Part shown: piece by piece, positions 8,326-22,696 of the stretch
Position numbering within the stretch: the first letter of the stretch is position 1
How the letters are laid out: each line of letters begins with the position of its first letter
Source: Parabacteroides sp.
GTDB lineage: Bacteria; Bacteroidota; Bacteroidia; Bacteroidales; Tannerellaceae
Reading direction: 5' to 3'
NCBI GenBank assembly: GCA_022775005.1
Contig: JALFJR010000038.1
Location: 1 to 41,807, forward strand
DNA: 41,807 nucleotides
The notes under the pieces: model-generated
The model's input: only the letters and a program-made list of their open reading frames with translations
Databases searched by the model: none
What the model was told of the DNA's origin: nothing
Translations under genes and position numbers: made by a program

Positions 8326-9453
8326 CTATTTCCCCTTGGCCACATACTCTTTGATTGCTTTGGAGAGCGCTATCCAATGCTCTTCGGTCATGCCGTTGCC
8401 CGTGAACAGACAGATGCCGGCTGCACCGCCTTCGAGTGAGGTCACCGTGGCCTCCGCGATCTCAGAGGGAAGCAATCCTGAACCTTCCGGATCGGTGATC
8501 TTATCCTTGTTTCTCCAGTCGTGGCAGATGAAGAGACCGCTATAAACGGGAGTGCCCTTAGCGGATACACGCTTTGCCTCCTCAGCGGCCATTTCGCCGA
8601 CCCAAGCGGGTGAGGCCAGATAGAAGTCGTTGTAGTTCATCGGGAAAACGGCATCGACATTCCACTCGTTCCATTGCTGGCGCACCATCCAAACGGCATG
8701 GCTGTCAGGGCCGGGGAACACGTCAGCGCTCACCTTTTTACCCATGGCGTGCACAGCGTCACAGATGTGGTTGACTAACCGGGTGACATTGTCACAACGC
8801 CACTTCGCCCACGCCTTGACCGTATCGGGCTCCGCTGTCGCACGGATGTCGATGCCTGTCTCCGCCTTGAAATCCGCTACGCACTGGTCGCAATAACAGA
8901 AATCGGCCTTCGGATATTCCTTGTCCATCACCAAGCCATACTTGTCCCATAAGCCGCGGCTCAGAATCACATCGGCATAGCGGATGTAGTCGAGCTGCAC
9001 ATAATCCACCTCCGGAATGGCGGCAATCTTTTTCACCTTTTCCGTGAGAAACTCCGCCACCTTGGGATTGCGAGGATCTAATGTGGTGTAGTAAGAGACA
9101 TAGGGAGGTTTGTCGTAGGCCGATTCACCCAAGCGATTCACGGTGTACATCGTAGAATCCACCCCCTCTTGTTTGGGATTCTGCACCATCATAGGGCACC
9201 AAGCGTGAAACTCAAGGCCATACTCCTTGGCCAAGTGGGCAGCCGTGTCCGCATTCGCCACGTTGAATCCCACATTGATACAAACGCCCTTCAAACCATA
9301 TTCCTTGTATTGGGCGAAATGTTCACGCAGTTGGGCAGCACCTGCATAACCTTCCCATGCGTACACGGGTACATCCTTCACGTCAATGGCTTGCTGGCAC
9401 GATACACAGGCGATCAGTGCCAACACACCTAACCATAATTTCTTCATGTTCAA
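8326..9453 (-). CDS. GHL10-like putative glycoside hydrolase lipoprotein
   Basis: 375 residues. A signal peptide with lipobox LIAC predicts lipidation at Cys16. The body resembles glycosyl-hydrolase-like TIM-barrel proteins of the GHL10 type: LKGVCINVGFNVAN early, VDYVQLDYIRYAD in the middle (acidic residues at a strand end, as in a catalytic site), CDQCVADFKAETG, VSADVFPGPD and VDAVFPMNYNDFY later. Substrate and catalysis are not proven by sequence. It lies 48 nt downstream of the CBM9-like gene on the same strand and is probably co-expressed with it. A function in surface or periplasmic glycan handling is inference. The alternative is a non-catalytic TIM-barrel protein. Confidence 0.75.
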   Translation of the reverse strand: MNMKKLWLGVLALIACVSCQQAIDVKDVPVYAWEGYAGAAQLREHFAQYKEYGLKGVCINVGFNVANADTAAHLAKEYGLEFHAWCPMMVQNPKQEGVDSTMYTVNRLGESAYDKPPYVSYYTTLDPRNPKVAEFLTEKVKKIAAIPEVDYVQLDYIRYADVILSRGLWDKYGLVMDKEYPKADFCYCDQCVADFKAETGIDIRATAEPDTVKAWAKWRCDNVTRLVNHICDAVHAMGKKVSADVFPGPDSHAVWMVRQQWNEWNVDAVFPMNYNDFYLASPAWVGEMAAEEAKRVSAKGTPVYSGLFICHDWRNKDKITDPEGSGLLPSEIAEATVTSLEGGAAGICLFTGNGMTEEHWIALSKAIKEYVAKGK

Positions 9454-9501
9454 TAATGTCTTTAGTGATAGTTATTTGTGATTAGTCGTTAATGCTCTCG
9501 G

Positions 9502-10605
9502 TTATCGCCTACGCAGGTAACCCTCCGCATCGATATAGATCTGTTTACCATCGGCTTTCGTCACGGTGATCTCGTAGTTGCGGCTGATGGCCTCTACGCT
9601 CAGCTTAGCACCCTCCGGCAGCATCGCCCACTCCTTGTCGGTCAATCCGAATTGCCAAACGGTGGAGTAGTAGCGACCCGTCTTTTGGAACTGCTCCTCT
9701 TGCGCATAGAACATCGCCCAAAGCAGGCGCTCAATCTCGAAGTCAGCCGGATAAGCAAACGGCACCTGGGCTTCGCTCGCACCTACGGTCTTGTCGCTCA
9801 GATAGACAAATCCCCAACGCTCCGGCATGTGCATGGCGATCTGCCCCGTAGAGCCCCATGTCCAGTTATCCTCGGGCAGGTATTTGCCTTCGGCATCCTT
9901 CTTGCGTTGATACTTGCCGTTCTCCAACTCAAATTGCCACTCTACCCGCGAGAAGCCCACACGCAGGTAGTTACCGGCTTGCAGATAGTTCTCAAAACTC
10001 TGCGCGATGGCCTTGCGAGGGATGGCGAACTCCACTGTCCAACCCTGGTCCTCGTCCTTGGGATTGTTGAGCGTGCCGTGCACTTTGGTGGCTACCTTAA
10101 TGCCTGGGCAATCCCATTGGAACTGCACGAAAGTAGGCGAGGGGGCACGATAGGGCTTCTCGATAGCCAAATCGAAAAGGGTGCCAATGGCATTCACCTC
10201 AATCTCAAAATAGTTGTGCGCATCGCCGTCGGGGTCGATAAAGATCTCAAAATCGTTGTTGTAATAGACCACCTCGTCATGCCGCTTGATGTCTGCCCAC
10301 ACGTGTGGCTCGGAAAGCTCCGCACCCACATACAGGTATTCCTCATCCCAAAGCATCTTCACTTGGGTCTGGTGGCGTGGCGCGGGAAAGCCCTCACCGC
10401 TAATATCGACAAAAGCGTTAGAGGTCTCGGCGTTCTTCCACGACGACTCGTTGAGCTTGCCATCCACCTTGATAGGATCGGTCGCCCGGTAACAGACGTA
10501 ATGGTTGGGCATCGTCAGAAAACGTGCGTATTTCTCGGTAATAGGTTGGGCCTTAGCTGCTATGGCCATGGCGCACAAAGTCAAGACTGAAAGGATACGT
10601 TTCAT
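9502..10605 (-). CDS. Secreted carbohydrate-binding family 9-like protein
   Basis: 367 residues. A type I signal peptide probably ends at AKA (17-19). The N-terminal ~230 residues look like the CBM9-like sandwich of Bacteroidetes proteins: IKVDGKLNESSWKNAE, VKMLWDEEYLYVGAEL, NNDFEIFIDPDGDAHNYFE, WTVEFAIPRKAI and LRVGFSRVEW, in order. The ~100-residue C-terminal part is less recognisable. CBM9-like domains bind sugar ends, but many of these proteins are not characterised. First gene of a two-gene minus-strand unit with a glycosidase-like lipoprotein. A -7 element lies about 63 nt upstream. Confidence 0.8.
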   Translation of the reverse strand: MKRILSVLTLCAMAIAAKAQPITEKYARFLTMPNHYVCYRATDPIKVDGKLNESSWKNAETSNAFVDISGEGFPAPRHQTQVKMLWDEEYLYVGAELSEPHVWADIKRHDEVVYYNNDFEIFIDPDGDAHNYFEIEVNAIGTLFDLAIEKPYRAPSPTFVQFQWDCPGIKVATKVHGTLNNPKDEDQGWTVEFAIPRKAIAQSFENYLQAGNYLRVGFSRVEWQFELENGKYQRKKDAEGKYLPEDNWTWGSTGQIAMHMPERWGFVYLSDKTVGASEAQVPFAYPADFEIERLLWAMFYAQEEQFQKTGRYYSTVWQFGLTDKEWAMLPEGAKLSVEAISRNYEITVTKADGKQIYIDAEGYLRRR

Positions 10606-10825: not shown

Positions 10826-10924
10826 AAAAATTGAGCAGGATATTTATACTGGTTGCACAGCCAATCGGGTAGCTGATTATGGGAAAAAGCCGTATCTTCG
10901 CCACACGAAAAAGGAGTGATGCTT

Positions 10925-11548
10925 ATGAAAACAGAAATGGATCCCGCAAAGACTTCACGAGGAGTGGCGTTCGCGCTGTGGATGAAGTCGCCCATGCCCA
11001 TGGTGACCTTGACCAAAACGATGGATGCGAGTCGCTTGGTGCGTTTTGCCAAACGTAATAACTATAAGTTTAACATGTTGCTCTGCTGGTGTGTTGGCAG
11101 GGCAGCCAGCCGTATCGAGGAGTTTTACCTATTGCCCGAGGGCGGTAAGCTGATGCGTTATGACCGACTGGCGATCAACGTCATCGTACCGAACCGGCAA
11201 GGGGGCATCAACTCTTGCGACATCCTGTTCAACGAGGATCTGCGGCAATTCAATGCCGACTATCTGCGACTGACGGCACAGGTGGCAGCGGCCTGCAAGA
11301 GCGAGTTCCGGGAGGAGGCGATGGTGGTAGGCACCTCGGCCATGATCCAGACGGAGCTGGACAGCATCGTGAATCAATACACCGATCTATTTTGTAATCC
11401 GATGGTGATGTGGGGAAAGTATCGGTCAGGCTTTTGGCGCACGACTCTGCCGATCTCCTTCCAATTCCATCATGTGCAGATGGATGGCTCCCATGCCGCC
11501 CGCTTCCTGGAAGCGTTGCAGGGGGAGATTCGCGATGTTTCTCGTTAA
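10925..11548 (+). CDS. CatA-like (chloramphenicol acetyltransferase-fold) O-acetyltransferase
   Basis: 207 residues with the CAT-family active-site motif HxxxDG (HHVQMDG near the C-terminus), preceded by the family-typical FCNPMVMWGKY and LPISFQFHH stretches. Family knowledge: type A CATs are trimers moving acetyl from acetyl-CoA to a hydroxyl through this His. The N-terminal region is divergent from classical resistance enzymes, so the acceptor is unknown and resistance should not be assumed. The start at 10925 is chosen because AAGGAG (10911-10916) is 8 nt away, unlike the GTG/ATG at 10916/10919. Its upstream region is the 22-bp repeat array. Confidence 0.8.
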   Translation: MKTEMDPAKTSRGVAFALWMKSPMPMVTLTKTMDASRLVRFAKRNNYKFNMLLCWCVGRAASRIEEFYLLPEGGKLMRYDRLAINVIVPNRQGGINSCDILFNEDLRQFNADYLRLTAQVAAACKSEFREEAMVVGTSAMIQTELDSIVNQYTDLFCNPMVMWGKYRSGFWRTTLPISFQFHHVQMDGSHAARFLEALQGEIRDVSR

Positions 11549-11763: not shown

Positions 11764-13689
11764 ATGAAAACACTTAGATTTATTGGAATGGCTTTATTCG
11801 CTATTCTTATGTGCACAAGTTTCATAGCTTGTAGCGAGGAAGGTGACGATCCTATTGGACCAACCCCAACGCCGGAAGTGCCTAAGTCTGAAATAATCAT
11901 TGATGCTAATCTTATCACAAATGGTTTGTCATTTTCCAGTGTGCAGGGAGAACAATCCATCTCTTTTTCAACGAATGAAGATTGGACTGTAAACGTGGCA
12001 AACACAACGAGTGGTGCAACTTGGTGTACTGCTTCTGCAACAAGCGGAACAAAAGGGAGTGCATCAGTCAAGTTTGCCGTTACGGAAAATACGGATTATG
12101 AAGACCGTAGTGTATCAGTTACAATCAAAGCAGGAACCGCCAGTAAGACCTTTACCATTGCTCAGAAAAGTGCAGATGCTCTGCTTGTTACTACAGATAA
12201 ATATGAAGTGAGTCAAGAGGGTGGTACTATCGAAATTGAAGTGAAAGCTAACATAGATTACAAAATGGAGATTTCGGAAAAGGCAAAGGATTGGATTAAG
12301 GAATCTTCGCTTCGTGCGATGACGACCTATAAGCATACGCTGGAGATTGCCGTGAATCAAGATGCCGAAAAACGGGAAGGTGAAATTACGTTCAAAAGTG
12401 ATGATTTAGTCGAAACCGTAAAAGTTTATCAGGCCGGTGGTGCCATTATTCTACTTTCGCAAAATGAATATAATGTAAGCGATAAAGGTGAGACCATTTC
12501 GGTAGAAGTTAAAAGCAATGTTGACTTTGACGTACAAATGCCTGATGTCGATTGGATTATTGATGACGCATCTCTTCGTGGTTTGTCAAGTCATACCTTG
12601 AAATACATCATTGCCCGTAATGAAACCAACAAACCACGTGAAGCGGAAATCATATTCTTTGACAAGAATAGTGATCTTAAAGATACATTATCCATTAAAC
12701 AAAATGGTGGTTTTTTGGTAATCGGAAAGAATCTGTCTATGCATCCGGAAGGATTTGCATTGCAATATACGGGCGTAGCAGATTTACAAGATTTCTTGTA
12801 TGGTAACTACGAACAAAAGATCTGTAAGGATATTTATTCAAAATTCGAAGATGCTTTTGATTTCATCTTTTTCCTTTATAATACTTCAGGAGAAGACTTT
12901 ACTCTGGGTGGTACTGCTTATCCAGTCAAAATGGATATTGAAGGTATTGGAATGAATAAAATAAACAGTTCGGCTCTTTACGGAAGCAAAGGATATCTTA
13001 AAAGTGTAAACCATTTAACTTTACGGACAAGTCTGTTTTCCGCTGGGCCTTTCTTGCATGAACTGGCTCATTATTGGGGTGCCGTTGATATCGGTCAAGA
13101 ATATGCGTTGGTTGATGGTTCTTATAGAGAGAGTATTCATTGGGGTACATCGGATATTGATGGAATATTAGGAGGTTTCAATTATCAGACTCTTAAACGG
13201 AATGTTGACGGAAATCCACAAAAATATTGGGCAACTTCTACCAGGGCTCAAGAATGGGGCTTTGATGGGTTTAGTCAGGAACTTAGCAATGGATATTTTG
13301 CTCCAATAGAGCTTTATTTGATGGGGTTGTTGCCAGCAGAAAGTGTTCCTGATATGCATGTCTTTCATGATGTTACGCTCGAACAGGAAACATGGGGTGA
13401 TGGTACATTCTATGCAAAATCAGAAAGTACGATTACTATGGATGATTTCATCAAAAAATATGGGAAAAGAAAACCTGATTACAAGGATTCTCAAAAGGAT
13501 TTTAGGGCTCTTGTTGTCGTTGTAACGGATCAACCTGTGTCAGATGAACATTGGGCATTAATCAAAGAAGACATGTTAAAACAGGAAAAACAAGGCGCTG
13601 TCAACGATAAGAGACAGACGAATTTCTGGGAAGCAACAGGAGGTAGGGCAACCTTAAGTCTTTCAGGCATTGATAAGTTCTTAAAATAA
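11764..13689 (+). CDS. BACON-domain surface lipoprotein with a putative zinc-metallopeptidase domain
   Basis: 641 residues. The signal ends at FIAC, Cys23 probably lipidated. Three BACON-like beta-sandwich repeats follow (about 40-130, 135-225, 228-317): each carries a strand such as ISFSTNEDWTV, a W-x-x-A/I motif and an end like FTIAQKSA or VKVYQAGG. The C-terminal ~320 residues hold HELAH (432-436) in FLHELAHYWG, then SIHWGTSD and the ELYLMGLLPAESVPD stretch. HExxH is the zinc-peptidase motif; the third ligand is not obvious, so activity is inferred. BACON domains are thought to bind carbohydrate or mucin. The gene is visibly A+T-richer than its leftward neighbours, suggesting transfer. Confidence 0.8.
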   Translation: MKTLRFIGMALFAILMCTSFIACSEEGDDPIGPTPTPEVPKSEIIIDANLITNGLSFSSVQGEQSISFSTNEDWTVNVANTTSGATWCTASATSGTKGSASVKFAVTENTDYEDRSVSVTIKAGTASKTFTIAQKSADALLVTTDKYEVSQEGGTIEIEVKANIDYKMEISEKAKDWIKESSLRAMTTYKHTLEIAVNQDAEKREGEITFKSDDLVETVKVYQAGGAIILLSQNEYNVSDKGETISVEVKSNVDFDVQMPDVDWIIDDASLRGLSSHTLKYIIARNETNKPREAEIIFFDKNSDLKDTLSIKQNGGFLVIGKNLSMHPEGFALQYTGVADLQDFLYGNYEQKICKDIYSKFEDAFDFIFFLYNTSGEDFTLGGTAYPVKMDIEGIGMNKINSSALYGSKGYLKSVNHLTLRTSLFSAGPFLHELAHYWGAVDIGQEYALVDGSYRESIHWGTSDIDGILGGFNYQTLKRNVDGNPQKYWATSTRAQEWGFDGFSQELSNGYFAPIELYLMGLLPAESVPDMHVFHDVTLEQETWGDGTFYAKSESTITMDDFIKKYGKRKPDYKDSQKDFRALVVVVTDQPVSDEHWALIKEDMLKQEKQGAVNDKRQTNFWEATGGRATLSLSGIDKFLK

Positions 13690-13700
13690 TAGAAGTTAGT

Positions 13701-13734
13701 AGATAGGCCATTATCAGACCGATAATGGCCTATT
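13701..13734. terminator. Perfect 13-bp hairpin after the metallopeptidase-like gene
   Basis: ATAGGCCATTATC (13703-13715) and GATAATGGCCTAT (13721-13733) with a 5-nt loop. No T run follows in either direction (TCTAAATC). Position 14 nt after the stop codon suggests a terminator or an RNA 3'-end stabiliser. Confidence 0.65.
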
Positions 13735-13766: not shown

Positions 13767-13774
13767 TAACTTTG
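13767..13774 (+). promoter_or_regulatory. -7 element for the type I R-M operon
   Basis: TAACTTTG matches TAnnTTTG, 28 nt before the hsdM ATG, and is the only clear promoter found in front of the four-gene operon. Confidence 0.5.
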
Positions 13775-13801: not shown

Positions 13802-15808
13802 ATGACAGAACAAAATAATATACAGTCTCAGCCTCGGGACATCATGCACTACGAGAGCGATATATGGGCGATAGCAGACTTGCTGCTGGCTGCCAGCGTG
13901 AAGCAGAGTGACTTCCCTGCCTACATGATGCCGTTCTTCGCATTGATGATGCTCGAAGGTCGTATGCTCAATGCAATGAAGCGTGTGGAAGTAGTGGAGG
14001 GGCTGACCGTGAAGGATGACCCTGAGGACTTTAAGGAGGCCTTCATCGACATGGATTGCGGATATAATGACTACATTGTCATGCAGGGCAAGACGCTGAG
14101 TAGCATCTGTAGTAATGATACGACCTTTGAACAGGACTTTAACAGTTACCTGAAAGCCTTTGACGATGTGCTGAAGAAACTGTTGGGCATAGAGCGTGGA
14201 AAGGACGAAAAGAAATTCCTGAACATGGACTACTATGTGGCTGAACTGCGTAGCAAGAAGATACTGTTGTCTGTTATCACGGCTTGGTCGAAGATAGACC
14301 TTTCGCCCTACGACAACTCTGCCATCACCACTTTGGAGGAACACATCAAACGCAAGTGGGCTGACATCAGTGCTTCTACTGCTGGAGAGCAGTATACGCC
14401 TGATGATATTATCTCACTGATTGCGGATATTGTCGCTACAAAGGTGACAAAGCCGAAAGATCAGAATATCCATATTTATGACCCAACCTGTGGTGGTGCG
14501 AACCTGTTGTTTGGTGTGGCAGATCGCTTGCATACACAGACTGGCTATCAGAATATCCACACATGGGGCAGTGAATACAATGATGCACTCTATGCTTTAG
14601 CAGCTATCGAGAGTCGCTTTCGTAGCCATTCTCATATTTACTATGGTAACACACTTACCACCGCTCCTTGTATGGGACGCGATATAGATGTGATTGTGGC
14701 TAATCCGCCATACGGCACGAAATGGAGTGGCTACGAGAGGGAAATCAAGAACGACCAAAAGGGGCAATTCCCTGGTGGTCTGCCATCGGTAAGCGACGGG
14801 CAACTGCTGTTCATGCAGCATATCCTTTGGCAACTTGCCCAAAATGGTATTGCCGTAGAGGTACATAATGGTTCTACGTTGTTCAGTGGCGATGCCGGTA
14901 GTGGAGAGAGCAATATCCGTAAATATATATTTGACCATGACTGGGTTGAAGCCATCATTCAGATGCCGCAGAATGAGTTCTTTAACACAGGTATTTACAC
15001 CTACCTGTGGATTATGAACAAGCAGAAGCCTTTTGAAAGAAAGGATAAAGTGGCACTCATCGATGGTAGTAAGTTGTGGCGTTTGCTAAAGAAAGCCAAG
15101 GGTGATAAGCGTCGTGAAATGACAGAGGAACATCGTTCCGAGATTGTTAAAACTCTGACAGAATTCAAGCCGAGTGACATCTGCAAGATATTCGACCGTG
15201 AACACTTCTACTATAACAAACAGAGTTTAACGCTGACGGAGGTGGATGTGAATGGTGAGTATCTTAAAGAGCCTTTCGCCCTGAAAAAGATTAAGTCAGT
15301 CGTGTTGAACGATGAGACATTGACAGATTTGAAAGGTCTTGACACAAATGCTGGTAATGCGCTGAAAAACAAATTGAAGGCTGCCAACATAGATGAAGAC
15401 AAAATCGTGATTACACTCGAAGATGGCACCTCTTATTGTTACGACCAAGAGCAGGAAACGATTATTTGTGAAAGCAAAGAAGGACGTAAGGTTTTGGGCT
15501 GCGGAGTCTTTAAGTTTGACTTGAGCACCTCAAAGGGGAAGAAGTCGCTGAAGGTGGAGCTTATACCTCGCACCACAGCTGACTATGAGATTATTCCTCA
15601 TCATTTTGACGAGCATGAGAACCAACGTGAGGTAGATGCATTCATGAAGAAGTATGTATTCAAGCCATACGTACTTGGCAAGAATGTGGTTGGCGTGGAG
15701 CTGAATTTCAACAAGGAGTTTTATGTCCCGGAGAAGATTGATAAGGTGAAGGATGTGCTGGAAGAGATTCGCTCACTGAATAATGAATTAATGGGGATTG
15801 ATTTATGA
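13802..15808 (+). CDS. hsdM: Type I restriction-modification DNA methyltransferase (HsdM)
   Basis: 668 residues. An N-terminal helical part is followed by the SAM-dependent adenine methyltransferase core: AGEQYTPDDII before motif I, YDPTCGGANLLFG as motif I, and NPPYG at 301-305 as motif IV, which marks N6-adenine methylation. LFSGDAGSGESNIRKYI and MPQNEFFNTGI are typical of HsdM further on. The C-terminal ~200 residues are less conserved. Longer than classical HsdM (~500-530 aa). Works with HsdS as methylase and with HsdR as restriction complex. Its stop overlaps the hsdS start (ATGA), so the two are translationally coupled. Confidence 0.95.
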   Translation: MTEQNNIQSQPRDIMHYESDIWAIADLLLAASVKQSDFPAYMMPFFALMMLEGRMLNAMKRVEVVEGLTVKDDPEDFKEAFIDMDCGYNDYIVMQGKTLSSICSNDTTFEQDFNSYLKAFDDVLKKLLGIERGKDEKKFLNMDYYVAELRSKKILLSVITAWSKIDLSPYDNSAITTLEEHIKRKWADISASTAGEQYTPDDIISLIADIVATKVTKPKDQNIHIYDPTCGGANLLFGVADRLHTQTGYQNIHTWGSEYNDALYALAAIESRFRSHSHIYYGNTLTTAPCMGRDIDVIVANPPYGTKWSGYEREIKNDQKGQFPGGLPSVSDGQLLFMQHILWQLAQNGIAVEVHNGSTLFSGDAGSGESNIRKYIFDHDWVEAIIQMPQNEFFNTGIYTYLWIMNKQKPFERKDKVALIDGSKLWRLLKKAKGDKRREMTEEHRSEIVKTLTEFKPSDICKIFDREHFYYNKQSLTLTEVDVNGEYLKEPFALKKIKSVVLNDETLTDLKGLDTNAGNALKNKLKAANIDEDKIVITLEDGTSYCYDQEQETIICESKEGRKVLGCGVFKFDLSTSKGKKSLKVELIPRTTADYEIIPHHFDEHENQREVDAFMKKYVFKPYVLGKNVVGVELNFNKEFYVPEKIDKVKDVLEEIRSLNNELMGIDL

Positions 15809-17055
15809 GGTTAAAAGATTTCTCTGTTTTAAATCCTCAGTATAAAGGGGAGAGTCTTGATTGCGAAGTTTCTTTTGTTCCTATGGAGAGTCTTCGTAAC
15901 GGAGCTATAGATTATCAAGATATTCCATTTGCAGAAGGGAAAGGGAAATATACATATTTCCAAGACGGTGACCTACTGGTTGCTAAAGTGACTCCATGCT
16001 TTGAAAATGGCAATATAGCTATCGCCAATAATATGAAGCAAGGGGTTGGTTTTGGTAGTTCGGAAATATTTGTATTGCGCATGAACGATAAAGTTCTTAA
16101 CACCTATATGTTTTACATCACTCAAACTGCCAAATTTCAGGAAGGAGCATGTGCAACAATGTGTGGTGTCGGTGGCCTAAAAAGGATTTCACCATTGTTC
16201 ATGCGAACATACGAGCTTGACATCCCATCACTTTCCAAACAGCAGCGCATAGTGAATTATCTGGATGTGAAACTTGGAAAAATTGACGCGCGTATTGCAA
16301 TCCTAGAGAAACAGCAGGATGCGTATGCTCGACTGAAGAAGAGTGTCGTTCATCATGCCGTTACCCGTGGACTTAACCCAAATGTCTCTCTCAAAGATTC
16401 TGGCGTAGAATGGATTGGCTTGATCCCAGAGCATTGGGAACGTTTCCGTCTTAAAGACCTTGGATACACGTATAGTGGATTAACTGGGAAATCTGGAGAT
16501 GATTTCCGCTGCGATGATGAGACCAAGACGAAACCTTATGTACCTTTTACTAATGTACTTAATAACACTGTTGTTGACAATGACAGTTTCAATTATGTTG
16601 CGATGGGAGATAATGAGCAACAGAACCAGGTAAAAACAGGGGATTTGCTTTTTTTAATGAGTTCTGAAGACTATGAGAGCATAGCAAAACCAGCAGTAGT
16701 GTTAGGCAATCCTGGTGAGGTCTATTTGAATAGTTTCTGTAGAGGACTCAGAATAACTAATCATAATTGTTACGCTCCGTTTTTAAACTATCAGTTAAAC
16801 TCTGAAATGTATAGGGATGCTTTACGTTTCGAAGCAAGAGGCTTTACTCGTATTAACATAAAGATAGATAGAGTGGCCAGTCATTTTGTTTCATTACCTC
16901 CATTTTTGGAACAGCAAGCCATTGCTGCGTACCTTGATGAGAAATGCTCAAGGATAGATGCAGCCACTGAAAACATTGGTAAACAGATAGACGCTCTGAA
17001 ACGACTAAAACGAGCTTTAATAAATGAAGTTGTAACGGGCCAGCGTGCCGTATAA
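15805..17055 (+). CDS. hsdS: Type I restriction-modification specificity subunit (HsdS)
   Basis: 416 residues with the standard two-half architecture: a target-recognition domain (~1-140), a central conserved helix region (LSKQQRIVNYLDVKLGKID followed by ILEKQQDAYARLKKSVV), a second recognition domain (starting near GVEWIGLIPEHWERFRL) and a C-terminal conserved helix (FLEQQAIAAYLDEKCSRID, KQIDALKRLKRALINEVV). Family knowledge: each half reads one part of a bipartite site and the helices set the spacer. A single copy, with no spare half-genes or recombinase nearby, so no sign of shuffling. It overlaps hsdM by 4 nt. Confidence 0.95.
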   Translation: MRLKDFSVLNPQYKGESLDCEVSFVPMESLRNGAIDYQDIPFAEGKGKYTYFQDGDLLVAKVTPCFENGNIAIANNMKQGVGFGSSEIFVLRMNDKVLNTYMFYITQTAKFQEGACATMCGVGGLKRISPLFMRTYELDIPSLSKQQRIVNYLDVKLGKIDARIAILEKQQDAYARLKKSVVHHAVTRGLNPNVSLKDSGVEWIGLIPEHWERFRLKDLGYTYSGLTGKSGDDFRCDDETKTKPYVPFTNVLNNTVVDNDSFNYVAMGDNEQQNQVKTGDLLFLMSSEDYESIAKPAVVLGNPGEVYLNSFCRGLRITNHNCYAPFLNYQLNSEMYRDALRFEARGFTRINIKIDRVASHFVSLPPFLEQQAIAAYLDEKCSRIDAATENIGKQIDALKRLKRALINEVVTGQRAV

Positions 17056-17059
17056 AACA

Positions 17060-17076
17060 CATCTGCGTATGAACGA
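17060..17076 (+). repeat. 17-bp direct repeat over the fic start codon (second copy 18227-18243)
   Basis: CATCTGCGTATGAACGA surrounds the ATG of fic and is found again, identical, around the ATG of hsdR (18227-18243). In both copies the ATG occupies the same place. Confidence 0.9.
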
Positions 17077-18223
17077 GAAAGAGCAATATATCAACTTCGA
17101 CGAGTATATACGTCAAGGTGAGCCCCAAAAGAAAGAGAGGGCCGAGGCTTGGCGTGTGGCGATTGGACTGCAGGCTGTAGATGGACTGAAAACTTCAGAA
17201 TATCTGCAGGATACCGCACGTAGGAATATTGAGGGTGAAATCACCATCGATGAAGCACGCGAACTGGTGAAGGAATACTACATCAAGAAAACAACCCACG
17301 ACGAAGATGACGCAGACAAGGAAGAGGCAGACCGAGTTTCGAGTAACATATCTAAACTCCTTCAGACAGATGCTTTTACCTACAGTGTTGCTGGACTTGC
17401 GGCTATTCATCGTGCCATCTTCGAGGGAGTGTTCAAACATGCTGGACGATTCCGCGACTATGACATCTCTAAAAAGGAGTGGGTGCTGCGAGGTGATTCT
17501 GTGCTTTATGGACGTTGGCAGGATTTGCGTATGGCCATAGAGTACGACTTAGGCCAGGAACATCAGTTTGACTATACAGGATTGAACAAGGACCAAATGG
17601 TGGAGCATCTGGCAAAATTCGTTTCAGGTTTATGGCAGATACATCCATTTGGCGAAGGTAATACACGTACCACAGCAATTTTCACCATCAAGTACCTGTG
17701 CTCACAAGGTTTTAGTGTAAACAACGATATGTTCGAACGCCACTCTTGGTATTTCCGCAATGCGCTGGTAAGAGCCAACTATCGGAATTTGGAGAAAGGC
17801 ATCGGTTATGAACCAATATTTCTGGTACGTTTCTTCCGAAATCTGTTACTGGGCGAGAATCATACATTGAAAAACAGATATATGATGATCGATGCACCAG
17901 AGGAATGGAAGATACCTGACAGCGAACAATCACCCGACAAGTTACCCGACAAGTTACCCGGCAAGTTACCCGACAAGTTCAGTACAAACAATGAGTATGT
18001 CAAGAGGTTAGTTGAAGTTGTCGGGCATGATGAGGTGACGATAAAAGATACGTTAAAAGTATTGGGGCTTAAAGATAGGGAAAGTTTTATGAAGGTATAT
18101 CTTAACCCTGCATTGAAGGAGCGGTTTGTGCGTATGAAATATCCTGATAAGCCCAACCATCCCCGCCAAAGGTATATGCTGACGGCAAAAGGGCTGGCAC
18201 TCTATAATGAAATTAAAAAGTAA
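17069..18223 (+). CDS. Fic-family protein embedded in the type I R-M operon
   Basis: 384 residues from the ATG at 17069. This start is preferred over a GTG at 17045, inside the hsdS end, because the upstream context is identical to that of hsdR. Residues ~22-71 resemble a VbhA-type antitoxin segment (ARRNIEGEITIDEA), but the inhibitory motif reads LQAVDG (34-39) instead of S/T-x3-E-G/N. The Fic core has HPFGEGNTR at 192-200, matching HPFxEGNGR except Thr for the second Gly; the catalytic His192 and Arg200 are kept. Four-residue repeats PDKL/PGKL/PDKF at 289-304 lead to a winged-helix-like C-terminal region. Family knowledge: Fic enzymes mostly AMPylate proteins. Target unknown; position between hsdS and hsdR implies a function tied to restriction. 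Confidence 0.88.
   Translation: MNEKEQYINFDEYIRQGEPQKKERAEAWRVAIGLQAVDGLKTSEYLQDTARRNIEGEITIDEARELVKEYYIKKTTHDEDDADKEEADRVSSNISKLLQTDAFTYSVAGLAAIHRAIFEGVFKHAGRFRDYDISKKEWVLRGDSVLYGRWQDLRMAIEYDLGQEHQFDYTGLNKDQMVEHLAKFVSGLWQIHPFGEGNTRTTAIFTIKYLCSQGFSVNNDMFERHSWYFRNALVRANYRNLEKGIGYEPIFLVRFFRNLLLGENHTLKNRYMMIDAPEEWKIPDSEQSPDKLPDKLPGKLPDKFSTNNEYVKRLVEVVGHDEVTIKDTLKVLGLKDRESFMKVYLNPALKERFVRMKYPDKPNHPRQRYMLTAKGLALYNEIKK
17933..17980 (+). repeat. Four 12-bp tandem repeats inside fic
   Basis: CCCGACAAGTTA twice, then CCCGGCAAGTTA and CCCGACAAGTTC, with no spacers, at 17933, 17945, 17957 and 17969. Each unit codes four residues, so changes in copy number keep the frame. Confidence 0.95.
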
Positions 18224-18235
18224 AATCATCTGCGT

Positions 18236-21200
18236 ATGAACGAACTGAAGATACAGCATGAATATGTGATGGAATTCCTATGCCGCCTTGAAGAACAAGG
18301 AGGCTTGGGTTATCGCAACGTGAGCAACATTGTTGTAAGCAATGATTTGTTCATTCCTTCCATTATGGGCGAGTTCGTCAAGAATAGCCAGCCTGAGACA
18401 TGGGCACGTTTGCTAAGGAAGTTCAGCAACGATGAACAGACTTTGCAAAACGCCTTGAAGGACAAGGTGAAGGAAACCCTTTTAGATGCTCAGAATGTGG
18501 CTACCTACATCAATGGGCACAAGTCCATCACCTTCGAGGGTGAAAAGGTCTGGCTATTCTATGTCTCAGGAACAGAATTAAAAGGTGATGAAGAGTTCAA
18601 ACAGAATATCTTCTGTGCTGTTGAAGAGTCGAGTCATACGCTCAAAGTTGACGAGGTAAAGCTTTATACTATCCGTCCTGACATCATGTTCTTTGTCAAT
18701 GGTATCTACATTGGCTACATGGAACTGAAATCTTCCACAAAAGGACAGACGGCACGTGTAAATGGACGTCAGAAGGTAGCCAAAGACTATCTTGCTACTT
18801 TGAAAGCATTGACAGAGCTGGAGAAGTGTGACGCAAAGGCGATGAAGCAGCGCAAAGAGGTAATGGCAATCTACGAGAAAGCCATACACTTGACAGCAAG
18901 CGACTGCAACGAGACATACGTGATGCGAGGCATTAGCCAGTTCTTCGACGTTGCTCATCAGGGATTCACAAGTGAGCCAGCAAAGACAGTGGATGAACTG
19001 ACACCTATTGTGTTGGAACCATTCAAGATTTATCCTGTTACAGCTTCAGCACAAACAGAGAAGCAACGCTTTGAAGAGGTGATGCGGGCACTGTACGATA
19101 AGAAGATGATAGAGAAAGAGATTCTCTACTACAACTTTATTGAGTACAAGTATGTAAAGAAGGAGGGGGCAAAAGAAAAAGAACGCACCTCGAACACTGG
19201 TCGCTTGATTGCACCGCGCCCCAAGCAAAAGTTCGGTTGCGACAAAATTATGGGGCGCATTACGGAAATGCTTGACCACGAGAAGGAACCTGGTTACTAT
19301 ATCAACAAGCTTCGTTCTTATTTGCAGTCTCAGGGGATAACGCCTCAAAAGATAGAGGAAATCATATTGCTGCGCGAACGTTATTTTAACAATAAGTTCG
19401 TGTATTCCCTTTTATTGCAGTATGCAGCCGGATTCGGTAAGAGTAATATTATCGGATGGACAGCCTTGCAACTGAAGGACTATCGTTATGAAGGAGTGCA
19501 TGCCTACGACAAGGTGATGATTGTGGTGGACCGCTTGCAGTTGCGTGACCAGTTAGATACTATGATGATGAACATGAACATTGACAAGTCGATGTTTGTA
19601 GAGGCAACAGATCGAGACACATTTATTAATGCCTTGGACGGCAAACTGCGCATCATCGTGGTGAATATTCAGAAGTTTCTGGATTTGCAAGATGCCCTGT
19701 CGGCAGCGGGTAAGAAACTGAAGAAGATGCGTGTGGCATTCCTCATTGACGAGATTCATCGTAGCAATTCTGGAGAGAACAATCAGGAAATGATAGACCT
19801 CTTCGCCCGATTGCAAGAGACATTCAATGTGGGTGGTCAAACAGTAGTGAAAAAGAATCTGCTGATAGGTTTTACTGCTACACCAAGCGAGGAAACACTG
19901 GCGAAGTTTGGCGAGTTTCGTAGTGCTTTGACGAAACCGATGTGGATTCCCTTCGATTGTTATACCATGCGCGAAGCGATTGAAGACGGCTATATTCTTG
20001 ACCCCACAAAGGCTATCATACCATACGCAGTACCTGTTGATTTCCAACTGCCTGAGGAGTTACAAGACAGCGATGAAGATAATATAAACATTGTCCTACG
20101 CAAAGATCGTGTTTATTCTTATGAACCACGTATGCGTAAGATTGCAGAATTCATTGTGCATCGTCTTGTGAGTCTGGTCTATAAGAAAATTCGCGGAGAA
20201 GGAAAAGCTATGCTGGCAGTGAGAAGTATTCCCAATGCCATCAAGTATTTCAACATCATACGGTCACTGTACGCTCAAAAATGCCAGGAACCAGCGTTTG
20301 AGAAATACAAGGATGCTCCTATTGTTATCATCTATAGTGATGATCAAAAGAACGAATCATGCGCTACACTGAATGGTGGTGTGAGCGAAGAGAAAGTGAT
20401 TCAAAACTTCCGTCAGGCAAAAAATGGTTTGATTATCGTAGTTGATAAGTTGCAGACAGGATTCGACGAGCCTAAGTTGCATACGCTTTTCCTCGATAAG
20501 GAAATCAGCGACATCAATGCCATTCAGACTATCAGCCGTGTGAACCGTACCTGTAAATATAAGGACGATTGCCACATTATTGACTGTTCTTGGCATAATG
20601 TAAACGTAGGAAACATCAGACTGGCTTTCAATAAGTTCTGCGATATGGCTATCTCTGACTTCAATCCAGAGTTTGAAACCCAAAGTGTGGCTCATACATA
20701 CAGGCTGCTTCAATCCAGTGACCCATATTTGCAGTGGTTTTCACGTTATCAGCATGAGCGTGAAGATACGCACTTCGTGCTGGAGATGGAAGATGGAATA
20801 CGGCAGTGGATTGAACAATGCTTTTATCAAGAAGCTCTTGCCAAGAAATACAATGAGGACAATAACTTGAAGCCCTCAGATGCAGATTATCATCCTGTTA
20901 CGAATCCTGCTTGTGACCTTCGGGGCTTTGTTGGTCATTACTTCTCTGGCATCCGTCTCTTAGATGGTGTCTTTGTCATAGACCAAAAATACTATGATGA
21001 GGTATTCCTCATGTTCTGGCAAATCTATTGCCATATCTACCGTGAGGTTAACCAACAAACAGAGGATGAACCATACGAGTATGAAGTCATCGACAGTGAT
21101 GAAGAGCCAGGCATCACATTAGTAGATGACGATGGAAGCGGTAATAGGGGAGGTGGACATAGAGGGCCACGTGGTGGGTCAGGTCCCCAGCCCCCCAAAG

Positions 21201-22696
21201 GAAAAAGCATGGACGAGGTGCTGGCAATTCTGCAAAGGCTGCATGAAACAGAACAGTTGACAGCAGAACAAGCTCAAATCTGGTTGCGTGAGATCGGTTT
21301 GATGTTTGATTATATCAAGAGCGATAGCGAGTTCTGCGCTTTTGCGAAGGATGACAACTACTCCGAAGATGAGAAGTTGGCGGAATACAAGAAGATTCAA
21401 GGCAGGTATCGCCGCAGTCTTAAGAATCGTCCCGATTTTGCACAGGTTGAGCGGTTCAAGCAGATGATTGCTGATAATGTTGAGCAATTGTTTGCCATTT
21501 TCATGGCAGATTTGCGCAATGTTGAAAACGGTGATTCAGACTTTGACTATGATACCACAAATCAGACACCTCGGCAGGGCGGATTCTCCATGGAGGATTT
21601 GATGGAGATGGCACGTAAGAAAATACGCCCCGAATATGATGAACGCAAGCTCCAAGAAAGAATTATTGAGACTTATAGTGACCATTTTAGGGGATTATCC
21701 CGATATATGCGCAGTTTCAATGAAACCACAAGATACCTGTTTATGGTTTTGAATACGCCATCACTGCCTATTCTCGATGGAATGGATAGCGTTGTCAAGG
21801 AATCGTTGAACATGGTATGCATGGCTGAAGGTCTTAGTTTGTCAGACAAGCGAATGCATCTTGACATGCTTCTGATGAGATATGAAGTATATCTTAAGAA
21901 ACTTTATTATCTCATTCACAAAGAAGAGATTCCCGCAAGAGAAGAGGGCCAAGGCGCAACACTATCAAATGCCGTCTTTGCTTTTCCCGCTTTGCGTGGT
22001 TTGAAAAACAACCCGATGCCAGCCTATCAAGAATTCTCACAGAGGCTGACAATGCTTCGACAATTGAGAAACGATGAATCGCATGGAAGTATGAATTTGA
22101 CTGAACAAGAAGTGGATGCTGCTTTACGTATTGTAATAGACATGTATTTATTTGTGACAGGCATGAATATCACAGAGTTGGAAGCTGCTGGATATGATGC
22201 TGACGAAATGCAACGAGAGTCCACTGTCATACCAGTCCATTCGTATAGTTATAATGATGAAGGCTCTCCTGAATATAGTATGGCTGCAGAGTCTTTCATT
22301 CCAGCAAATGAATTGACAGAAGAACAGAGAATAGACGTACTTTGTAAGAGTCTTGTTCAGATGATGAATCATGGAGGCTATCGTGCTTCTGATAAAACTT
22401 TCTGCAAGCAACGTCATTGGGTTGCTGTTTACCGTATTGCTGCTGATGAAGGTTTTACTATTGATGGCGACTACAGATATTTCAAACATATTGTAGATGG
22501 AATGAACTTGCAAAGCTGTAAAGTTGCTCTTAACATCGATACACTTGAAAAGAATTTAAAGGGCATTTATGGCATATCTTTTGTAGATTGGAGCGACAAC
22601 GGATTGTCAGGGAAAAATCTGGATGAATACAACGACATCCATCATTGTGCCGGAGTGTTCTTGAAGATATTGTCAGAAAATAGGCCTAAAAGATGA
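18236..22696 (+). CDS. hsdR: Extended type I restriction subunit (HsdR) with C-terminal HEPN-like region
   Basis: 1486 residues, compared with ~1000-1100 for usual HsdR. The N-terminal nuclease has a PD-(D/E)xK pattern: Pro148-Asp149 and Glu163-Leu-Lys165. The SF2 translocase follows with AAGFGKS (397-403, Walker A), DEIH (505-508) and TATP (547-550), then the ISRVNR motif. After ~960 comes a Gly/Arg/Pro-rich linker (~963-985, including GGGHRGPRGGSG), then ~500 residues not expected in HsdR. Mostly helical, these contain RNDESH (Arg1278 to His1283), the RxxxxH spacing of HEPN ribonucleases, and an uncharacterised last ~180 residues. The first ~960 residues make the restriction function secure; the meaning of the extension is inference. 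Last gene of the operon. Confidence 0.92.
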   Translation: MNELKIQHEYVMEFLCRLEEQGGLGYRNVSNIVVSNDLFIPSIMGEFVKNSQPETWARLLRKFSNDEQTLQNALKDKVKETLLDAQNVATYINGHKSITFEGEKVWLFYVSGTELKGDEEFKQNIFCAVEESSHTLKVDEVKLYTIRPDIMFFVNGIYIGYMELKSSTKGQTARVNGRQKVAKDYLATLKALTELEKCDAKAMKQRKEVMAIYEKAIHLTASDCNETYVMRGISQFFDVAHQGFTSEPAKTVDELTPIVLEPFKIYPVTASAQTEKQRFEEVMRALYDKKMIEKEILYYNFIEYKYVKKEGAKEKERTSNTGRLIAPRPKQKFGCDKIMGRITEMLDHEKEPGYYINKLRSYLQSQGITPQKIEEIILLRERYFNNKFVYSLLLQYAAGFGKSNIIGWTALQLKDYRYEGVHAYDKVMIVVDRLQLRDQLDTMMMNMNIDKSMFVEATDRDTFINALDGKLRIIVVNIQKFLDLQDALSAAGKKLKKMRVAFLIDEIHRSNSGENNQEMIDLFARLQETFNVGGQTVVKKNLLIGFTATPSEETLAKFGEFRSALTKPMWIPFDCYTMREAIEDGYILDPTKAIIPYAVPVDFQLPEELQDSDEDNINIVLRKDRVYSYEPRMRKIAEFIVHRLVSLVYKKIRGEGKAMLAVRSIPNAIKYFNIIRSLYAQKCQEPAFEKYKDAPIVIIYSDDQKNESCATLNGGVSEEKVIQNFRQAKNGLIIVVDKLQTGFDEPKLHTLFLDKEISDINAIQTISRVNRTCKYKDDCHIIDCSWHNVNVGNIRLAFNKFCDMAISDFNPEFETQSVAHTYRLLQSSDPYLQWFSRYQHEREDTHFVLEMEDGIRQWIEQCFYQEALAKKYNEDNNLKPSDADYHPVTNPACDLRGFVGHYFSGIRLLDGVFVIDQKYYDEVFLMFWQIYCHIYREVNQQTEDEPYEYEVIDSDEEPGITLVDDDGSGNRGGGHRGPRGGSGPQPPKGKSMDEVLAILQRLHETEQLTAEQAQIWLREIGLMFDYIKSDSEFCAFAKDDNYSEDEKLAEYKKIQGRYRRSLKNRPDFAQVERFKQMIADNVEQLFAIFMADLRNVENGDSDFDYDTTNQTPRQGGFSMEDLMEMARKKIRPEYDERKLQERIIETYSDHFRGLSRYMRSFNETTRYLFMVLNTPSLPILDGMDSVVKESLNMVCMAEGLSLSDKRMHLDMLLMRYEVYLKKLYYLIHKEEIPAREEGQGATLSNAVFAFPALRGLKNNPMPAYQEFSQRLTMLRQLRNDESHGSMNLTEQEVDAALRIVIDMYLFVTGMNITELEAAGYDADEMQRESTVIPVHSYSYNDEGSPEYSMAAESFIPANELTEEQRIDVLCKSLVQMMNHGGYRASDKTFCKQRHWVAVYRIAADEGFTIDGDYRYFKHIVDGMNLQSCKVALNIDTLEKNLKGIYGISFVDWSDNGLSGKNLDEYNDIHHCAGVFLKILSENRPKR

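Follow-up and report, generated by a model that had tools for sequence, protein, structure and literature searches.

Why does a gene for a Fic enzyme lie between the specificity and restriction genes of a type I restriction-modification (R-M) operon, how do genes enter such slots, and does the partner enzyme matter to them? These questions are raised by a locus of Parabacteroides sp. (contig JALFJR010000038.1), analysed here over a stretch of 41,807 nucleotides (nt), which is referred to as the window. The reading that we favour, and hold to be moderately probable, is that the gene encodes a mobile, autonomous Fic effector, which entered the operon between hsdS and hsdR and, expressed together with restriction, serves as a back-up defence.

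A Fic gene within a type I operon

Four intact open frames follow one another on the plus strand in the order hsdM-hsdS-fic-hsdR, with gaps of -4, 13 and 12 nt:

13767..13774, plus strand: promoter -7 element of the Bacteroidota type (TAACTTTG), starting 35 nt ahead of the hsdM ATG; no second one was seen for the operon
13802..15808, plus strand: hsdM, type I DNA methyltransferase subunit, 668 residues; PF02384 (N6_Mtase) 7e-50, PADLOC MTase_I 7e-115
15805..17055, plus strand: hsdS, specificity subunit, 416 residues, overlapping hsdM by 4 nt; PF01420 (Methylase_S) 3e-16 in two stretches, PADLOC Specificity_I 6e-91
17069..18223, plus strand: fic, 384 residues, ATG 13 nt past hsdS; Fic 7e-12 and Fic-like_C (PF21247) 9e-21
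18236..22696, plus strand: hsdR, type I restriction/translocase subunit, 1486 residues, 12 nt past fic; PF04313 (HSDR_N), PF18766 (SWI2_SNF2) and PF22679 (T1R_D3), EcoR124I HsdR match 1e-8

The M, S and R subunits are encoded together, which is the gene content of a type I R-M system, and the locus is an ordinary system of this type, forming by position a single operon. We take the NPPY, PD..ELK and Walker-type motifs to be legible in the HsdM and HsdR sequences, whose methylation and ATP-dependent cleavage activities are predicted only. A first-pass annotation of the sequence had described a tight plus-strand operon with a single visible promoter, and both points held up: all four products gave family matches at the spacings listed, and one TAnnTTTG element, which we take to be the Bacteroidota -7 consensus and used for scoring TAACTTTG, precedes hsdM, whereas in the window the 150 nt ahead of the fic start and of the hsdR start contain no such element. 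Transcription of fic would thus begin at the hsdM promoter. An alternative GTG frame for fic opens at 17045, and a scan for promoters of the E. coli type, which gave 27 sites versus 19.9 expected, was uninformative here. Between the upstream gene and hsdM, a perfect 12-bp inverted repeat with a 5-nt loop (13704-13732) is probably a terminator.

Recurrent placement of the Fic family in defence loci

Relatives of the window Fic were taken from a scan of species genomes as the best 80 of at least 586, mostly from metagenome assemblies, and fetched as loci bearing L-numbers, which gives 81 loci with the window; in a protein search, 45 of 295 genomes of the order gave matches, of which several were partial or confined to the C-terminus. 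Genes were called at the loci, local HsdM, HsdS and HsdR profiles were built, and the context labels were set before the tree was seen. At 13 of the 81 loci fic lies inside or directly beside type I genes:

M-S-fic-R order: the window, L080, L082, L092 (where a RhuM-Fic gene separates M from S), L111, L117 and L098 (whose R is of the EcoEI type)
Fic-R order: L069, L091
M-fic order: L073, L133
S-DUF4062-fic-YhcG-R order: L093 (YhcG label by eye)
hsdR end, then fic: L107

Genes resembling hsdM occur in 106/295 genomes, those with any having roughly one to a few, and type I linkage at 13/81 loci is estimated to be far above random placement; further type I settings of the Fic were seen beyond the 81 (L172, L174, L156, L168). 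At six more of the 81 loci the gene accompanies other defence systems:

L101: BREX-like, BrxC, PglZ and BrxL around fic (the PglX label there comes from a methyltransferase profile and position, not from the PADLOC scan)
L079: DISARM-like, DrmA two genes upstream of fic
L085: Druantia-like, DruE four genes upstream of fic, which a Vsr gene immediately precedes
L124: type III enzyme 33 nt before fic
L081: methyltransferase-like and HD-CE genes preceding fic
L128: grouped here though HsdM and HsdS precede fic

The promoter pattern was scored at 79 of the 81 loci: a TAnnTTTG element was found upstream of none of the eight embedded fic copies, of 3/14 copies lying close behind a same-strand gene and of 36/57 free copies, the chance background being 17 of 448 coding stretches. 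On the Fic tree, which is a quick tree, 13 changes are required to explain the 13 type I-linked rows (nine or more by starred branches); shuffled labels needed 12.2 on average, and all 500 of 500 shuffles were as low as the observed 13. Because the type I-linked rows are scattered in this way, the association appears to have arisen many times or to have been lost many times.

Other Fic families were also seen in type I operons, between S and R at L143 and between M and S at L171, and among the matches listed for 149 genomes a Fic lies, by eye, within roughly 1 kb of a same-strand HsdS at G059:C10, G079:C3 and G002:C23. At type I loci of two genomes (L172, 3690-5687; L174, 390-2407) a second Fic with the motif HPFMEGNGRSTR directly follows the family Fic (3-nt gap, 4-nt overlap), possibly forming a two-gene Fic module. 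A RhuM-Fic fusion with the motif HSFSDGNKRIAA lies elsewhere in type I operons that contain the family Fic (L092, 7817-8785; L093, 4874-5938). In the BREX-like operon of L101, the Schlafen/AlbA_2 protein encoded directly before fic (8723-10219) ends in a PF21247 winged helix and has a linker rich in repeats; this C-terminal module is 24-30% identical to the Fic copies compared, which places one module on two effectors.

Fic and the neighbouring HsdR

The first-pass annotation had further suggested a composite defence system, in which fic would be paired with an extended HsdR and its product might modify HsdR or a host protein. The motors of nine HsdRs beside family Fics are only 22-30% identical to that of the window HsdR. 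Its nearest cores among the 295 genomes, all in proteins of 1103-1117 residues, are those of L142 (65%), L143 (58%) and L144 (58%). In L142 hsdS stands directly before hsdR with no insert, in L143 an unrelated Fic (SSKIEG, HPFLDGNGRIGR) occupies the slot, and at L144 a contig edge leaves the upstream side of hsdR unassessable. The first-pass annotation had itself named the lack of fic in close relatives that share the hsdR as refuting a single system, and this is what was observed, though in no more than two assessable relatives.

A dedicated partnership, in which the Fic modifies this HsdR or its complex and thereby controls restriction, would suit the adjacency and the co-transcription by position, and also the exceptional locus L107, where an hsdR end resembling that of the window (23% over 197 residues) is followed after 3 nt by this Fic. 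However, the neighbours of the family comprise several divergent HsdR types as well as non-type-I systems, the two assessable nearest HsdRs come without this fic, and the type I-linked Fics do not cluster on the tree; nothing found in the analysis suggests that the Fic modifies HsdR, and we consider such a partnership very improbable. Since kin of the Fic live with several unrelated DNA-targeting systems and also alone, it does not seem to depend on this HsdR. Co-evolution of fic with the long HsdR is unsupported by the Fic tree and the HsdR comparison and was rejected on these grounds. What stands of the composite system is a defence-linked back-up role, which is reasonable because fic is intact, conserved and co-transcribed by position, and because the family recurs in type I operons (13/81); what lacks support is one co-evolved system, given 13 changes for 13 rows and the low identity of the HsdR motors.

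The HsdR is indeed oversized, as the same annotation had remarked, with 1486 residues versus 1103-1117 in the three nearest by core and 1038 in EcoR124I. The excess over about 1100 residues consists of two separate parts:

21623..22258, plus strand: HEPN-like stretch in the C-terminal region of HsdR, with RNDESH as its Rx4H motif, residues ~1130-1345
22279..22696, plus strand: 139-residue HsdR end, residues 1348-1486, 86% identical in DNA to L111 14864-15274

The first part is common to the fic-linked L111 and L082, the fic-less L146, and L145, whose upstream side lies past the contig end, and Rx4H is present in 5/5 HsdR sequences with the stretch. Its Pfam matches are weak (HEPN_Swt1 0.15 for the L111 copy, DUF2087 0.07 for the window copy), no HEPN model passes its cut-off on the HsdR tail, and solved structures, searched with a profile of the HsdR end, gave nothing up to E = 5. 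An AlphaFold model of the end, built on a three-sequence alignment, reached a confidence score (pLDDT) of 45 overall and 52-75 in blocks, with the stretch helical at low confidence. By their sequence, residues ~1130-1345 may form a HEPN domain, a fold marked by an Rx4-6H motif within a four-helix bundle.

The second part was found, among the compared HsdRs, only in the Prevotella HsdR of L111, whose motor is 25% identical to that of the window. For this pair the HsdR end gave a nonsynonymous divergence (dN) of 0.07 and a synonymous divergence (dS) of 0.78, and fic a dN of 0.34 with non-computable dS; the HsdR ends appear to have been exchanged recently. Distant relatives of the 139-residue end occurred in a single phage record out of 50,697, in a single plasmid out of 72,556 and in one further genome among the 295 of the order (L151), where it forms the C-terminus of a 312-residue protein that by eye resembles an S24/LexA-type repressor, and a scan of viral contigs with the HsdR tail found no relative. 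The extension was also considered as a part of the Fic system and rejected: it is present in the M-S-R operon of L146, which has no fic, and in L145, and it was not found in the fic-adjacent HsdRs of L080, L092, L117, L069 and L093, so that the proposed pairing of fic with an extended HsdR was not borne out.

Direct repeats at the ends of fic

Like the two-part make-up of the HsdR excess, a further feature had escaped the first-pass annotation, namely that the gene is framed in the window by an exact direct repeat:

17060..17076, plus strand: 17-nt repeat (CATCTGCGTATGAACGA), 5' copy, holding the fic start codon
18227..18243, plus strand: the same 17-nt repeat, 3' copy, holding the hsdR start codon

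With one mismatch and one indel, the similarity reaches back to the hsdS and fic stop codons, and L117 has a like arrangement of 18 nt. Exact flanking repeats of at least 17 nt were found at 7/81 fic copies versus 2/310 other genes, and among operon gene triples repeats of at least 12 nt occurred in 3/13 with fic versus 0/132 with others. Flanking repeats are a minority feature of fic copies, and at L062, L148/L003 and L093 part of the similarity falls in gene ends reading KGE and may have other causes.

When 10 units were compared by eye, the inner ends shared no sequence, and they thus lack the common termini expected of a transposable element. Because the repeats differ among loci and the inner ends are unshared, both a classical transposon and a fixed attachment site were rejected as their source. 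For the same reasons the repeats resemble a target duplication made by insertion, and the 17-nt repeat is most simply read as the hsdS/hsdR junction duplicated when fic entered. It is possible, although we put it forward tentatively and rather doubt it, that fic moves as a bare gene of ~1.2 kb devoid of transposon ends, through a copying or template-switching insertion which duplicates the junction of the host genes, and that the same process fills the accessory slots of many defence operons. L093 may be cited in support of such slot-filling, as exact 53-nt copies of the hsdR start (11238-11290 and 11873-11925) flank a YhcG/DUF1016-like gene (by eye) between fic and hsdR. If this were true, the duplication would, in an operon, supply the newcomer with an upstream stop codon and a downstream start codon, and it would be translationally coupled from birth.

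Active site and predicted control of the Fic protein

The Fic protein consists, in order, of a weakly VbhA-like N-terminus, the Fic core, a repeat-rich linker and a C-terminal PF21247 winged helix, and it matches the PADLOC candidate PDC-S72 (6e-123, residues 9-292, profile 5-287 of 377). The linker contains the following repeat, found in a repeat scan:

17923..17970, plus strand: 12-nt in-frame tandem repeat, encoding PDKL units

His192 lies within the Fic motif HPFGEGNTRTTA, and the form H[PA]FxEGNTR[TA]TA is present in 81/81 Fics (80 relatives and the window); in one copy on a viral contig the motif end reads TVA. The canonical AMPylation motif is given as HxFx[D/E]GNGRxxR (PMC5033356), which these proteins do not match, as its Gly and second Arg are replaced by Thr and Ala in all 81. 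Doc, described as a kinase, departs from the canonical motif at the same Gly and has Lys at position 8 of the nine-residue motif (PMC4177925); in the present family this position is Thr in 81/81. Because the canonical Gly and second Arg are Thr and Ala in every member, plain AMPylation is doubted, and the chemistry is probably another one; the conserved non-canonical motif marks a Fic group of putatively distinct chemistry. Among the catalytic residues, His, Glu, Asn and the first Arg do not vary, and purifying selection on fic is strong (dN 0.14-0.18 in seven pairs, dS at least 4.5 or not computable).

At the N-terminus, I54, E55 and G56 are invariant in 32/32 aligned Fics, and A-x-x-x-IEG is found in 77/81, which is consistent with a Fic that is probably self-inhibited by a helix-like element. 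The C-terminal PF21247 domain (9e-21), joined at L101 also to the Schlafen-type protein beside fic, could point instead to a protein acting mainly as a transcription or stress regulator of its host operon; yet the invariant catalytic residues argue for enzyme activity, and members of the wider family have other C-terminal ends, so that a regulator in this sense is improbable.

For the favoured effector, we infer the silence at rest, the trigger, the target, the chemistry and the benefit on the model of PrrC in EcoprrI or of DarTG2 in the same slot, both discussed below. A Fic gene of the PDC-S72 family would have reached the hsdS/hsdR slot as a mobile unit, and its product would be kept silent at rest through the inhibitory-helix-like N-terminus, while the C-terminal winged helix may sense the trigger. 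Infection, an anti-restriction factor or a failed restriction step would then release the Fic, which might modify an essential host or phage protein and stop the infected cell.

Back-up effector or passenger

The spread of the family also suits a rival explanation, in which fic is a selfish passenger, that is, a toxin-like addiction or mobile gene which settles in expressed operons, is hard to lose and adds nothing to restriction. It would account for the 62 of 81 rows labelled solo or unknown, for the direct repeats at the ends of fic, for the 16 Fic relatives on contigs classed as viral, and for free copies beside type I gene remains (a 28-residue fragment of hsdR at L063, fragments of RhuM genes at L062 and L138), as if fic had outlived the operon. 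These three loci were counted as solo, as were others with type I genes or traces nearby: L130 (hsdM-like stretch upstream), L139 (M and S four and three genes upstream) and L066 (hsdR three frames upstream). On the other side, repeated independent placement in DNA-targeting defence operons, which make up little of the genome, is hard to obtain by chance alone, and the nearest insert-bearing relative (L143) holds a different Fic family in the same slot; on balance a mere passenger seems unlikely.

Several points weigh against the favoured reading of a mobile back-up effector, in addition to the way the relatives were sampled. No recognised defence gene was seen beside most copies, the neighbours in the solo or unknown rows being partly annotated, and some annotated neighbours are housekeeping or unrelated genes (transketolase, acyltransferase, CinA). 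PDC-S72 is a candidate model only; the Pfam VbhA match to the Fic N-terminus is weak (0.004, under the cut-off), and the usual S/T of the Fic inhibitory motif is missing from its place here. A TATATTTG element stands immediately before the different Fic gene of L143, so that a slot gene need not use the operon promoter. As to mobility, no empty version of the window locus was found. Repeats with a local-alignment score of at least 17, a threshold chosen after the data had been seen, occurred at 10/76 fic copies versus 10/701 other genes; two of these ten fic matches (L087, L118) look like dispersed promoter repeats, and the figures become 8/74 versus 8/699 when these and two like controls are removed. 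In a second set of 37 fic copies (from order, viral and neighbour loci, some fetched twice) scores were mostly at background, with only L164 and L165 above 17 (the same 270-residue frame on two contigs, with long AT-rich repeats) and L003/L148 at 15.5.

An accessory toxin in a restriction operon is a kind of arrangement already known. Literature searches on Fic in type I operons or defence, on embedding, on PDC-S72 and on HEPN-HsdR found neither one Fic family spread over several defence systems nor junction repeats, and no paper that they returned names PDC-S72. One Fic family occurs independently in type I operons and, at one locus each, in BREX-, DISARM-, Druantia- and type III-like settings, which argues for an effector that responds to a general signal of infection or of failed restriction rather than to a specific partner, and the junction repeats, if confirmed, would provide a footprint for recognising recent insertions into defence operons.

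Surroundings of the operon

The annotated flanking genes are unrelated to the operon (a BACON-domain protein, a cytidylyltransferase and a Na/H exchanger). A frame of the chloramphenicol acetyltransferase family (PF00302, 4e-15) lies at window positions 10916-11548.

Comparison with known systems

HEPN domains of the DUF4145 type have been surveyed as fusions to restriction and helicase modules, and according to a table of the same survey, R-M operons often contain PrrC/RloC genes, which are also found with toxins of the RhuM or Fic/Doc kind (PMC3710099); unlike those fusions, the HsdR tail described here is under the cut-off of every HEPN model. Back-up effectors of BREX are described, in the searched text of one account, without mention of Fic (PMC12839542).

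With PDC-S72 the window Fic shares the protein family by profile, and that model describes the Fic alone, without the operons in which it is set. SoFic is reported as a class II single Fic defence protein with an N-terminal inhibitory helix, which AMPylates and acts by abortive infection (PMC12249575). The window protein is likewise a single Fic protein with a putative N-terminal helix-like element, but its match to SoFic is weak (3e-5) and its motif departs from the canonical one.

DarTG2 is reported between hsdS and hsdR in the RRDM island of E. coli, where the slot is regarded as a potential recombination hotspot (PMC12255303). Here too a toxin-type effector occupies this slot within one defence island with a type I system; unlike the Fic, which is one self-contained gene, DarTG2 is a two-gene toxin-antitoxin system, described with a known island repressor.

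The prrC gene is placed exactly between hsdS and hsdR, and an effector of this guarded type is kept silent by the R-M complex until restriction is inhibited. In the prr locus of E. coli (EcoprrI/PrrC), a latent, potentially suicidal effector gene is embedded in a type I operon (PMC3874165, PMC2610378), and the window operon likewise has an embedded effector gene. Unlike PrrC, which is an ABC-ATPase/HEPN tRNase, the effector here is a Fic enzyme, and whereas PrrC is reported always to accompany a type Ic system (PMC2610378), this Fic is not so linked.

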